IMG/VR virus record: IMGVR_UViG_3300025141_000376
Location: 1-34,558 of that record
Origin: a virus
Length of the DNA: 34,558 nucleotides
Reading direction: 5' to 3' (one strand)
The notes below the pieces were generated by a model, which saw nothing but the letters and a program-made list of their open reading frames with translations, did not search any database and was not told the origin of the DNA. This document shows, in pieces, positions 22,919-31,920 of the stretch (its first letter is position 1; the number at the start of each line of letters is the position of its first letter). The translations under genes were made by a program, and so were the position numbers.

Positions 22919-24538
22919 TTAGTTTCCCCCTATTACAACATTAACTGCTTCACTGGGTTCCCGATAGACACCATCCCTGATATCCTCTAAGTAATCTACT
23001 ATTGCTTTTGCCAAATCTGCTCTCCTCATAGGATCTAAAACGTCAGGTCTAAACGCAACAGCTAGTCCTGCATCAGCAGAAATAGCCTTTGCCAACGCCA
23101 TGAAAGAATTTGTCCTCTCAGCAGTAGTTCTATTTCGCCTTTGCTCATCAAGATATTTATTTTTCTCAAGCGTAAGACGTTCTTCCTCTAGTTGTCCATT
23201 ATAAGCCAACGCAACACCCATAGCCGTTAATCCTGCTGCAATGCCAATCCACCCTGTAACTGGGATGGATGCAGTAAGAGCTAAAGTTGCACCCGCATTA
23301 CTATACAAGGCACCTGCCAAAGCAGCCATACCACCCAATATAGTGTTATTTTGCAAAAATCTAACTGCTGATTGTTTTATAGAAACAGCTAAAGCAAATG
23401 CAGCTTGGGCAATATACTGAGTTAATAGCCCAATTATTGCTGGGAATATTGCGGTAACTAAAAATCTAAGCGGAGTTTTAATAGCGTTTAGAATATTCAA
23501 TACAGGCCCTAATAAAGCAGCAAACCCCATTTTTAATGGTTCTACTATTTCTCCAAGTATGGTTGATAGTTGCTCAAACTGCTTAAGAAGAACAGTGTCT
23601 GGTCCCTCAGGAGCGGCAACGGCTCTATCCAATTGTGTGGCAAGCTGCCCTAAGCCACCTTCGCCTCCTGCAATCTTAAGTAATGCAGTGAATACTTCAC
23701 CTAATTCGCCACCCGCTCCCCCCGTTAGCGATTGAGTTCTTTCAGACCCTATCGCAATCGCCTCCGCTAATTTATCTTGCATTTGTTTGGGGGATAATTC
23801 TCCAGATGCCATCTCTTGGCGAAGCTCTAATAGGCCGAGTCTAGAAAGTAATGCAGAGCTAGTGGAGGGGGCCACTAGTAGTTTCGCAAACTCACCAATA
23901 GAGCCTCCAAACTGAGCACCCAGTTTAGCGGTTAACCCTTGTACTGCTTTACTCATTGGACCCGATATTCCCATCATACCAAAAGTCGCCATTTTTTCTG
24001 AAAGACCATTTACAGCACCAATTAAATCTGTAGTCGTAATATTGTATTGTGCTGAATTATAAAGTATATCTTCTGATAACGAGTTTAGAGAGTTTTCTGT
24101 TAATCCTCCCTGGTTAAACAGCATTTTATTCATTTGGAACAAGGCTTGTGAGCTTTGTCCTGTCTGCTTCATATGACCCGCAAGTTGCAGCGTTCTGGGA
24201 TTTAATTGATCAAACCCCGCTCTCCTCAAATCTAAAAGAGCTTGTGTATTTTCATAAAACCCTCCCGCTAAACCCCCTATAGCAGCAGTATTTCCCTTTG
24301 TTAATCCCGCAAGAGTTTTATTTATTGCAAGAGACTGACTCTGTATGACATTAGCTTGCTGAATATTCCTCGCCAGAACTTTTGCACCCTCAATAAGAGA
24401 GTTGAATGCGAGATTCGAAATCCCAAGTACATTTCGTAATGCATCAAGTGCTATATAAGTGAAATTTAGAGATTCATTTAATGTAGTATAATCGTATCGT
24501 CCCCCTGTGTTTGGTGGGGGTGTGGCTCCTCCTGCCAT
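22919..24538 (-). CDS. Tail tape measure protein
   Basis: The 539-residue protein is rich in Ala, Gly and Leu and is mostly helical. It has long amphipathic stretches (for example AFNSLIEGAKVLARNIQQAN and SAKMATFG-type helices) and two hydrophobic segments at about 355-390 (RFLVTAIFPAIIGLLTQYIA) and 400-446. This is the usual make-up of tape measures, which set tail length and help DNA cross the inner membrane. It lies upstream of the LysM-type tail, hub and spike genes, as in Mu and P2. With the common ratio of roughly 0.15 nm per residue it would give a tail near 80 nm; that is inference. Its ATG overlaps the preceding stop by one base (TAATG). Confidence 0.75.
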   Translation of the reverse strand: MAGGATPPPNTGGRYDYTTLNESLNFTYIALDALRNVLGISNLAFNSLIEGAKVLARNIQQANVIQSQSLAINKTLAGLTKGNTAAIGGLAGGFYENTQALLDLRRAGFDQLNPRTLQLAGHMKQTGQSSQALFQMNKMLFNQGGLTENSLNSLSEDILYNSAQYNITTTDLIGAVNGLSEKMATFGMMGISGPMSKAVQGLTAKLGAQFGGSIGEFAKLLVAPSTSSALLSRLGLLELRQEMASGELSPKQMQDKLAEAIAIGSERTQSLTGGAGGELGEVFTALLKIAGGEGGLGQLATQLDRAVAAPEGPDTVLLKQFEQLSTILGEIVEPLKMGFAALLGPVLNILNAIKTPLRFLVTAIFPAIIGLLTQYIAQAAFALAVSIKQSAVRFLQNNTILGGMAALAGALYSNAGATLALTASIPVTGWIGIAAGLTAMGVALAYNGQLEEERLTLEKNKYLDEQRRNRTTAERTNSFMALAKAISADAGLAVAFRPDVLDPMRRADLAKAIVDYLEDIRDGVYREPSEAVNVVIGGN

Positions 24539-27976: not shown

Positions 27977-29011
27977 TTAGTTAATTATTAGATAAAATAG
28001 GGGGCTAACAATATGCTCATCAAAAAGATCATAACTTACCTGAACTGAATACGTTCCTGTCCTTGATCCCAAATCATCGTTGTCGAAAGTAGCCTCAGTG
28101 TTGTGCTCTTCCCCGTCCCCATTCGTGAATTTTCCTATAAGTCCTGTAGCTGTATCCCAATTATAAACTATTGTGTTGTCAGAAGTTACATTAATTCCCG
28201 ATATACTTGACGCAACAAGGACTCTGGATGGAAGGTTTACGTCATCATTGTGCTTATGGATTAGTACTTCAACGTCAGATATAGCAGATCCCTTAAGCGT
28301 GTTTTTTACACTTTCATCAATATCCTTATTCTGTATTGTAATTTCAGTACCTACCTTTATATCAACCTTTGAGCCTAAACGAACCCTCTTATTAAACAAC
28401 TTATTTCTAGTGTGGACAATAAGGGGTTGGGTTATAGATACAAAGGTATCGGAGAATAACTCAAAATCATTAAATACTGTCTGCCATTCGGATTCCTTAC
28501 CAAACTTAACAGTCCAAACGTCTATGTATTTTCCCGTAGATGAGGCTGTATTTTGAACAATAAGCTGATTCTCTCTATCAAGCCCATAAACATTTCCTGC
28601 ATTTTTACCATCTAAAACAACGGCAAACTCTCCGGGATTTTCCTTTAAATTATAGATCCCACTAGTACCTGTGTTTGATTCGTCAGGTTCACCCTCTCCT
28701 AAAACAACACCTGTATAATCGCCCTCATCGAAATTATCATCCCCATCGGATACGTTTGTTTCACCATCTGCGAATTTAGGCCCAAAGGTCATAAGAGAGA
28801 TTGCGGCAGCCTCCGGGGATATCAATCCATCCTCTCCCAAAATAGTGTTCGGTGCCAGATTAGAAGTATAATGAAAAATATGAACAGAACGGATGGCGAA
28901 CGGATCTTTAGCAATTCCATCATCTAAAAAGAAGTTTCTAAGTAAAACCCTAGAAACTACGCTAGGTCTATTATGACGGTCGTTAACCGCTGTTTCGTTG
29001 ACGAATGGCAT
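27977..29011 (-). CDS. Virion structural protein of myovirus type, function unknown
   Basis: The 344-residue protein begins MPFVNETAVNDRHNRPSVVS, then RVLLRNFFLDDGIAKDPFAI. I associate this opening with conserved structural proteins of large myoviruses, from memory rather than from a search. The body is beta-rich, acidic in 85-115 (NVSDGDDNFDEGDYTG), and ends in strands TGTYSVQVSYDLFDEHIVSP with LFYLIIN. It follows the chaperone gene; its start lies inside the last 29 nt of the chaperone's -1 frame extension, so its translation may be coupled to frameshifted ribosomes. A tail, neck or fibre-attachment role is possible. Confidence 0.6.
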   Translation of the reverse strand: MPFVNETAVNDRHNRPSVVSRVLLRNFFLDDGIAKDPFAIRSVHIFHYTSNLAPNTILGEDGLISPEAAAISLMTFGPKFADGETNVSDGDDNFDEGDYTGVVLGEGEPDESNTGTSGIYNLKENPGEFAVVLDGKNAGNVYGLDRENQLIVQNTASSTGKYIDVWTVKFGKESEWQTVFNDFELFSDTFVSITQPLIVHTRNKLFNKRVRLGSKVDIKVGTEITIQNKDIDESVKNTLKGSAISDVEVLIHKHNDDVNLPSRVLVASSISGINVTSDNTIVYNWDTATGLIGKFTNGDGEEHNTEATFDNDDLGSRTGTYSVQVSYDLFDEHIVSPLFYLIIN

Positions 29012-29183
29012 CTTGTTCTCGCTCTTGCTCCTCCATTAAAAGATTGATAAATATAATTCTTTCCGACCTAGTTAGGTTCAAAACATCTCTGTAGCTTAAG
29101 CCTACATGCTTTATTAATATATAGGCTTCTTGAATAAGGTCCTTTAAAGTTAATCCATCAGCTAGTTCGGAGAGAAAAAATTT
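28983..29183 (-). CDS. -1 frame extension of the tail-assembly chaperone
   Basis: This frame has no stop between the slippery heptamer and TAA at 28985-28983. After Phe250 of the chaperone it would add 64 residues, starting FLSELADGLTLKDLIQEAYI and including YRDVLNLTRSERIIF and a charged helix MEEQEREQDAIRQ. The fused product would be 314 residues, in place of the 254-residue form that ends 4 residues after the slip point. The first in-frame ATG is deep in the extension (29036), so separate translation of the whole piece is unlikely. The short helical, charged composition recalls the T or E' extensions of tail chaperones in lambda and P2. It is predicted, not proven. Confidence 0.7.
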   Translation of the reverse strand, partial: KFFLSELADGLTLKDLIQEAYILIKHVGLSYRDVLNLTRSERIIFINLLMEEQEREQDAIRQRNSG

Positions 29184-29926
29184 GGCGTAATCGGCAAGCT
29201 AATTGCATTGTGATCATTGCAATTTGAACACACAAACTTTACATCTGTTTGAATGCCGTAATCAGACTTTGATATAGCATTCAGTATTGTGTGCAAATCG
29301 GCAATAGGTAATCGTTTGATCACTTTGGCAATTACGCCCTTATCTTTGCTGCCTCCTATCACTGGAACAAACCTCCAGATTTGGTCTAATAACTTTTCAG
29401 TATTAGCTAAATATTTTTCGTCATAGACTCTAGGTAATCTAACCCTACATGTTTTCTTAATCTTTTTTAACTCTATCTCCTGTGGATCCTCATAACTCTC
29501 AGGAACTGTGATATTTATTAACTTATCTAACTCAATGGACAAATTGTTCTCTGCCTTACACTTACTACATAAGCAAACAACTTTATATTCCGAGCCATAG
29601 GAAAGTTCCCTAATTTTTAGAATAAGAAATAATTTATCCATTAGAAGAAGGGCTTCAACATCAAGCCCCTCAACACATCTAGATAGTAGTAGATTGGCTG
29701 AATCTATTGCGACATCATTTTGTGCCGTAATGATTGCCTTCTCATCATCAAAAGTCATTGGTCGCACAGTTACTTTTGTTTCATCAAAATTTGATCCATA
29801 AAATTTACCCCTAGAAGGAACTTCCACTTGTATAGAAACCTCACTGGGAAGATTCTCAAGAATGTTACCAATTTCTTCTTCTTCTGATAGCGAGATTGCT
29901 TCTGGGGCCATTTCTTTATTATTCAT
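29162..29926 (-). CDS. Tail/baseplate assembly chaperone, T4 gp26/gp51-type
   Basis: The 254-residue product has the layout of the T4 baseplate-hub assembly family. A central VEVPSRGKFYGSNF is followed by KVTVRPMTFDDEKAI (51-65). Next come SANLLLSRCVEGLDVEALLL (76-95), then DKLFLILKIRELSYGSEYKV and two CxxC half-knuckles (Cys118/120...Cys123 and Cys233-Cys236), probably binding zinc. Proteins at this position fold the tape measure or hub before assembly and are absent from the virion. The gene begins a minus-strand unit, divergent from uvsW, with an AGAGGT ribosome site. Its 3' end holds the slippery sequence described separately. Assignment to gp26 rather than gp51 is unclear. Confidence 0.72.
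   Translation of the reverse strand: MNNKEMAPEAISLSEEEEIGNILENLPSEVSIQVEVPSRGKFYGSNFDETKVTVRPMTFDDEKAIITAQNDVAIDSANLLLSRCVEGLDVEALLLMDKLFLILKIRELSYGSEYKVVCLCSKCKAENNLSIELDKLINITVPESYEDPQEIELKKIKKTCRVRLPRVYDEKYLANTEKLLDQIWRFVPVIGGSKDKGVIAKVIKRLPIADLHTILNAISKSDYGIQTDVKFVCSNCNDHNAISLPITPNFFSPN
29177..29183 (-). promoter_or_regulatory. Predicted -1 ribosomal slippery heptamer A AAT TTT
   Basis: The minus strand reads CCA AAT TTT TTC in the chaperone frame, so A-AAT-TTT fits X XXY YYZ in the correct phase. It lies five codons (TTC TCT CCG AAC TAG) before the normal stop. A -1 slip enters a frame that is open for 64 further codons. I see no strong upstream ribosome-site stimulator and only a weak possible stem downstream. 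Confidence 0.7.
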
Positions 29927-31325: not shown

Positions 31326-31549
31326 AAGATATAAAAGATATAAAGAAGCAGGTAGCAAAACTCTCTGAAACAGAACTAAATACTGTTAAATCTATTGCCA
31401 GTAATTTAGCAACTATACAAAAAAAGCCCATCGTATCAGAGGAAGGGCTTAGATTGTTAGAAAATTGCTTCTCCGAGTTAGAGATTTTTAAAAATAACTA
31501 TACTTGGCGAGTAATAAGACTATTAAAACAAAATCATATGATTGATTAG
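31322..31549 (+). CDS. Small helical protein in the UvsW.1 position
   Basis: The 75-residue product (MKDIKDIKKQVAKLSETELN..., ending NNYTWRVIRLLKQNHMID) is charged and helical. It starts inside the stop of uvsW (ATGA), so it is almost certainly translated with it. T4 has a 76-residue UvsW.1 directly downstream of uvsW, which is thought to work with the helicase; the position and size match, but I cannot verify sequence homology. Its last 4 nt overlap the stop of the convergent iscU gene. Confidence 0.6.
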   Translation: MKDIKDIKKQVAKLSETELNTVKSIASNLATIQKKPIVSEEGLRLLENCFSELEIFKNNYTWRVIRLLKQNHMID

Positions 31550-31920
31550 TTGTTACTTTTGTAGTCTTTTATTGCGGCTTTTATCGCGTCCTCTGCTAGG
31601 ACGCTGCAATGAAGCTTCACGGGAGGAAGGCTTAGTTCTTCCACGATTTGAGAATTTGTGATCTTGTTTGCCTCGTTTAACCTCTTGCCCTTGATCCATT
31701 GTGTGGCGAGACTGGAAGAAGCGATTGCGCTTCCACATCCGAAAGTTTTGAACTTGGCATCTACAATGAGGTCGCCTTCTACCTTTATTTGGAGCTTCAT
31801 TACGTCCCCGCATTCGGGTGCTCCTACCACTCCAGTCCCCACGCTGTTTTCCGACTTCGGGAAGCTTCCCACGTTTCTCGGATTGTTGTAATGATCTAAC
31901 ACCTTCGCGCTGTACGCCAT
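31546..31920 (-). CDS. iscU: IscU Fe-S cluster assembly scaffold
   Basis: The 124-residue protein is full length and very close to bacterial IscU: MAYSAKVLDHYNNPRNVGSF, VVGAPECGDVMKLQIKV, FKTFGCGSAIASSSLATQWI and LPPVKLHCSVLAEDAIKAAI. The three cluster ligands (Cys37, Cys62, Cys105), the key Asp39 and the HscA-binding LPPVK (98-102) are all present, so it could take sulfur from host IscS and pass clusters through HscA/HscB. The start is ATG 31920, which has AGGAG 7 nt upstream; a longer GTG start at 31950 adds unrelated residues. A hand count gives about 49% GC over 31561-31920, against about 31% in the adjacent 31321-31500, which suggests recent transfer from a cellular genome. Confidence 0.95.
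   Translation of the reverse strand: MAYSAKVLDHYNNPRNVGSFPKSENSVGTGVVGAPECGDVMKLQIKVEGDLIVDAKFKTFGCGSAIASSSLATQWIKGKRLNEANKITNSQIVEELSLPPVKLHCSVLAEDAIKAAIKDYKSNN

Follow-up and report, generated by a model that had tools for sequence, protein, structure and literature searches.

A predicted programmed −1 frameshift giving short and long forms of a gp26/gp51-type tail assembly chaperone

The stretch of viral DNA analyzed here (34,558 nucleotides, IMG/VR record IMGVR_UViG_3300025141_000376, hereafter the window) contains a gp26/gp51-type tail assembly chaperone gene that, judging from its sequence and those of its relatives, very probably yields two products by a programmed −1 frameshift: a short form, TAC-N, of 254 aa and a long form, TAC-NC, of 314 aa. 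The ORF of the short form occupies positions 29,162–29,926 of the minus strand, and its 3' end reads CCA AAT TTT TTC TCT CCG AAC TAG. The slippery heptamer T_TTT_TTC (29,174–29,180, minus strand) lies three codons before the TAG, leaving a zero-frame tail of S, P, N and stop (TCT CCG AAC TAG; 29,162–29,173, minus strand). The −1 frame extension, TAC-C, which is of the gp51 C-terminal type (28,983–29,174, minus strand), comprises 63 codons and is open as far as the TAA at 28,985–28,983; the long product therefore counts 251 + 63 residues and has NFFLSEL as the predicted junction peptide after a slip at NFF. The next gene (27,977–29,011, minus strand) encodes a 344-aa protein without a match in Pfam and PHROG, and its ATG at 29,011 falls within the final 29 nt of the extension. 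The coordinates, the ORF and both product sizes given in a first-pass annotation of this DNA, as well as its placement of the next gene start inside the extension, were all reproduced from the sequence.

The 254-aa protein matches the Pfam T4_baseplate family PF12322 (E 1.2e-17; 64.7 bits, cut-off 24.5) and phrog_150 (E 6.1e-22). It contains two CxxC pairs, C120/C123 and C233/C236, and all four cysteines are invariant in 17 sequences. The AF2 model of this body (pLDDT 85) matched gp26-like viral proteins, with the SP-15 'baseplate hub subunit' as the top viral match (E 2e-17); a Foldseek search of the same model against solved structures gave no significant match.

The relatives were collected by a search with the 254-aa protein, which gave 19 loci, and by a search with the alignment of these loci, from which the best 80 of 261 matches were taken; together they comprise 71 distinct nucleotide sequences. 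In all 71 of these (19 loci plus the best 80 of 261), T_TTT_TTY stands at one and the same position and is followed by an open −1 frame of 54–64 codons, and the zero-frame stop lies exactly three codons past the slip in 70 of them, the exception being L070 with one codon. Since these searches were seeded on the body, a second search was seeded on the extension alone; the heptamer was present at the junction in 58 of 58 distinct sequences and in-frame fusions numbered zero. Codon-level statistics were calculated for 49 representatives that are less than 85% identical. Over 50 codons past the slip, the −1 frame of these representatives contains no stops, compared with means of 7.4 in the zero frame and 4.6 in the +1 frame, and the codon-position entropy places the hypervariable site at the zero-frame wobble position before the slip and at the −1-frame wobble position after it. 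Comparison with the nearest relative, L036, gave dN 0.09 and dS 0.47 for the extension, which by these sequence measures is under purifying selection. Thus, the alignment of relatives that the first-pass annotation had proposed as a check shows a conserved slip heptamer, in the form T_TTT_TTY, a conserved −1 frame and coding constraint on the extension, and neither of the two sequence-level outcomes it had named as contrary, loss of the heptamer or stops in the −1 frame, was encountered among the 71 distinct sequences (again the 19 loci and the best 80 of 261). The window alone is unremarkable, with a p of about 0.007 for a 64-codon open frame under a first-order Markov model and with 16 occurrences of TTTTTTC against 15 expected; it is the relatives that, on this comparative evidence, put the arrangement far beyond chance. 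The nearest relative (L116/L036, QCKN01000003.1; protein 80% identical) lies on a 130,604-bp contig; the single-cell assembly it comes from bears the label Prochlorococcus sp. AG-409-P03, which hints at a host among the cyanobacteria or else at a virus sorted along with the cell.

The first-pass annotation had assigned the slip to A_AAT_TTT (29,177–29,183, minus strand), which overlaps T_TTT_TTC. Both heptamers are present in phase in the window, and the same junction peptide would result from either. Among the 49 representatives, the codon preceding TTT TTY is AAT in 28, GAT in 18, TCT in two and AGT in one; it ends in T in every case, and TTT without exception encodes the first Phe. Set against codon usage, the choice of wobble T and that of TTT have log10 P values of −9.1 and −6.8 (49 representatives), figures that treat the sequences as independent and are made too strong by kinship, with a clear direction nonetheless. 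A_AAT_TTT is unconserved because the preceding codon varies, AAT being present in only 28 of 49, and many relatives that keep the extension have GAT, AGT or TCT there, whereas T_TTT_TTY is found in all of them. The slip is therefore unlikely to occur at A_AAT_TTT, and the conserved slippery site, as the alignment indicates, is T_TTT_TTC, one codon downstream. In this respect, the earlier claim of an in-phase slippery site near the stop stands, but the heptamer it named gives way to T_TTT_TTY.

The same T run invites two other explanations. RNA polymerase might slip on it, so that a minority of transcripts with an extra U would encode the same fusion, and a run of at least six T is indeed present at the junction. 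However, the run is only six T long in 27 of the 49 representatives, which is short for productive transcriptional slippage, and the pattern fits the in-phase ribosomal heptamer X_XXY_YYZ; we regard this explanation as highly improbable. An error of sequencing or assembly within the T run, concealing one continuous gene of 313–314 aa, might be suspected, as homopolymers are error prone and as T4 gp51 and the chaperones of some bacterial injection systems are fused in frame; the frames are related in the same way, and a stop close by is conserved, in many contigs from different assemblies and in genomes of isolated cyanophages, which leaves such an error a negligible chance.

Programmed frameshifting also has to be weighed against the extension being a separate small gene, whose translation would start close to the upstream stop by coupling or re-initiation. 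Cyanophage gp51 is indeed annotated as a gene of its own in GenBank, and weak starts exist in some sequences. However, as the first-pass annotation had remarked, there is no early start in the extension: the window lacks ATG, GTG and TTG before extension codon 31, which is a TTG and is followed by an ATG at codon 46, and the coding constraint begins earlier. The extension of L010 contains no start codon anywhere, and a separate gene would leave the invariance of the heptamer without a reason. A separate gene is thus very unlikely.

The RNA downstream of the predicted slip was searched for signals. RNAalifold found no consensus fold there. A hairpin that starts about 8 nt past the slip and is more stable than after synonymous randomization was detected in about one third of the representatives, with a mean z of −1.0 overall compared with −0.57 to +0.21 for controls; just past the slip, a stable hairpin is present neither in the window (z +1.7 against synonymous randomization) nor in L036. 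In another observation, the synonymous sites of the codons GCC TAT ATA (window 29,118–29,126, minus strand), about 48–56 nt past the slip, are nearly fixed (45 of 47, 47 of 49 and 48 of 48 codons), a signal that exceeds that of the slip itself. In the window, this block is predicted to pair as one side of a hairpin, and the partner arm, as assessed by eye, is missing in several other sequences. The conserved GCCTATATA block might be taken for a promoter-like element; this reading was rejected, as the window shows no enrichment of the related pattern CYTATAWTA.

The extension is linked to T4 by the PHROG family 'baseplate hub assembly catalyst' (phrog_634), which is matched by five of ten family members with a best E of 2.1e-5 (E 0.039 for the window itself). 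Compared with T4 gp51 alone, the profile of the extension scores weakly (E 0.034 in a small set; hhalign 0.046), and it is the PHROG family search that settles the homology. In T4, PF12322 matches both gp26 and gp51, whereas phrog_634 matches only gp51, at about aa 147–247, its C-terminal part. Thus, these profile matches make the extension a homologue of the T4 gp51 C-terminal domain, and gp26 and gp51 the short and the long form of one family. The AF2 model of the extension consists of four helices (pLDDT 90). T4 itself uses no frameshift for the two forms of this same family, which are encoded by two neighboring genes of opposite orientation.

The Kyanoviridae cyanophages P-SSM2, Syn9 and S-RIM2 share with the window the T_TTT_TTC heptamer, the −1 frame and a homologous extension: their gp26 gene ends NNT TTT TTC NNN stop, and their 'gp51' is the −1 frame across this end. 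They differ in that the slip lies one codon, rather than three, before the stop, and in that GenBank lists separate genes 26 and 51. Cyanophage gp51 was described as being without the first ~200 N-terminal residues (Sullivan et al., 2010, PMC3037559), and frameshifting from gp26 would account for this absent N-terminus. In the phylogenetic tree, T4 gp26 and gp51 join each other (93/86) and then the cyanophages (90/79), with the frameshifting lineages outside. On long branches, this topology tentatively suggests that the two-gene arrangement of T4 was derived from one frameshifting gene.

Other phages were noted with the extension in various frames. It occupies the −1 frame at T_TTT_TTY in Stenotrophomonas phage RAS14 and huge phage LR756511, and a presumed counterpart occupies the +1 (or −2) frame in Bacillus phage SP-15, Listeria phage LIS04, Streptococcus phage GXN1 and huge phage LR756508 (loci L021–L023 and L026); the frame calls for RAS14, LR756511, SP-15, LIS04 and GXN1 are based on single sequences, likeness by eye and weak profile scores. 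SP-15, LIS04 and GXN1 share NCC CGA TTY ahead of the stop. A tblastn search of plasmids with the SP-15 protein found nothing.

A related arrangement is seen in the contractile injection systems of cyanobacteria. The extension matches Pfam DUF6760 weakly (E 0.19); in profile comparison, the phage extension matches DUF6760 with a P of 4e-5, and DUF6760 matches the C-termini of in-frame fused injection-system chaperones with a P of 4e-8. DUF6760 is thus a likely relative of the extension domain. It is encoded in 32 of the 386 cyanobacterial genomes searched, and in 29 of 29 loci (L136–L165) an invariant GGGGGA is present at the junction, with the DUF6760 frame −1 relative to the upstream frame. 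The latter is usually an ORF of about 100–130 aa, often with a zinc-ribbon end (in L141 and L162 it is not a long intact ORF), and its stop lies no more than one codon past GGGGGA in 27 of the 29 loci. The −1 frame of DUF6760 has no stops in 42 codons, compared with averages of 4.2 and 1.4 in the other frames, and most loci are without a usable start at the junction. Neighboring ORFs resemble tube proteins by eye. The GGGGGA junction thus looks like a second, candidate frameshift. DUF6760 may instead be made by re-initiation at an unusual start, since GGGGGA also looks like a ribosome-binding site. Our literature search found no paper on a DUF6760/GGGGGA frameshift. In other bacterial injection systems (L122, L123, L166 and L167), the chaperone is fused in frame to a C-terminus of the gp51/DUF6760 type, and these systems apparently have the long form only. 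Taking frameshifting as the reading of both junctions, we lean, with modest confidence, towards the view that contractile tails in general use a frameshifted chaperone of two forms whose C-terminal domain is of the gp51 type, that this scheme reaches the chromosomal injection systems of cyanobacteria (DUF6760, −1 at G_GGG_GAR), and that the two-gene arrangement of T4 and the in-frame fused versions would be later resolutions.

We propose that the phage is T4-type and contractile-tailed and that the two products of its tail assembly chaperone gene would arise as follows. Normal translation would give abundant 254-residue TAC-N of the gp26 type, and a −1 slip by a fraction of ribosomes on U_UUU_UUC, which lies three codons ahead of the stop, would give 314-residue TAC-NC, whose helical C-terminal domain corresponds to that of T4 gp51. 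What the sequences show is the anatomy of the locus, its conservation, the coding constraint and the homology; we infer the slippage and its efficiency, and by analogy with lambda G/GT the role in assembly, in which TAC-N would coat the tape measure protein and the few copies of TAC-NC would recruit tube subunits. Lambda gpG/gpGT, and the HK97-like systems, similarly involve one gene, a −1 slip near the stop and a minor extended chaperone, and their gene lies upstream of the tape measure gene; the window differs in its heptamer and in its chaperone body of the PF12322 zinc type, whose fold matches no solved structure significantly. The lambda heptamer is G_GGA_AAG. In phage P2, a U-rich heptamer directs the −1 extension of the tail chaperone E to E', and no sequence kinship is known between E/E' and the window chaperone. 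The lambda scheme of a tape measure coated by the short form, with tube subunits recruited by the rare long one, has been summarized (PMC5009743), and a list of hub assembly chaperones includes T4 gp26 and gp51, of which gp51 is required but does not occur in the final particle (PMC3004832).

The probable tape measure protein of the window, and hence the probable client of the chaperones, is a 539-aa protein (22,919–24,538, minus strand), a designation that we infer from its downstream same-strand position, its length and its hydrophobic segments (about residues 355–385 and 427). It has no match in PHROG at E 0.1, and profiles identified neither tape measure nor tube proteins in the window; its gene lies about 4.4 kb downstream of the chaperone. 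In SP-15 and LIS04, an annotated tape measure gene is located close behind the chaperone gene. The window also contains a NifU/IscU-like iron-sulfur scaffold gene (31,546–31,920, minus strand; phrog_8429, E 1.3e-39).

The abstract of a 2022 study by Vladimirov and colleagues reportedly describes frameshifting in several T4-like groups. G-T frameshifting had been called widely conserved 'except T4' (PMC5009743), and the T4-like tail assembly chaperones were then identified (Vladimirov, Gautam & Davidson, Virology 2022;566:9–15; cited in PMC10885494 and PMC12846349). Of the two citing papers, PRFect (PMC10885494) points to that study when it states that the short and the fused form have separate genes in some T4-like phages, and PMC12846349 when it mentions polyT slippery sequences within the TAC-N genes of this phage group. 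Given the 2022 identification of the T4-type chaperone pair, the present gene is not the first of its sort: frameshifted chaperones of the T4 type are already known in principle, and it is a further, well-supported case. Likewise, the proposal of the first-pass annotation that a frameshift would tie the gp26/gp51 family to the G/GT logic agrees with our reading, but as a new link it is preceded by that work (Vladimirov et al., 2022).

The relatives described here provide a large comparative base for a frameshift that is easily missed; an extension like that of the window would usually escape annotation, and cyanophage gp51 has been annotated as an oddly short gene. They also lend tentative support to T4 having split one frameshifting gene in two. 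If confirmed, the cyanobacterial junction would provide a function for DUF6760 and add a recoding step to the building of contractile injection systems.
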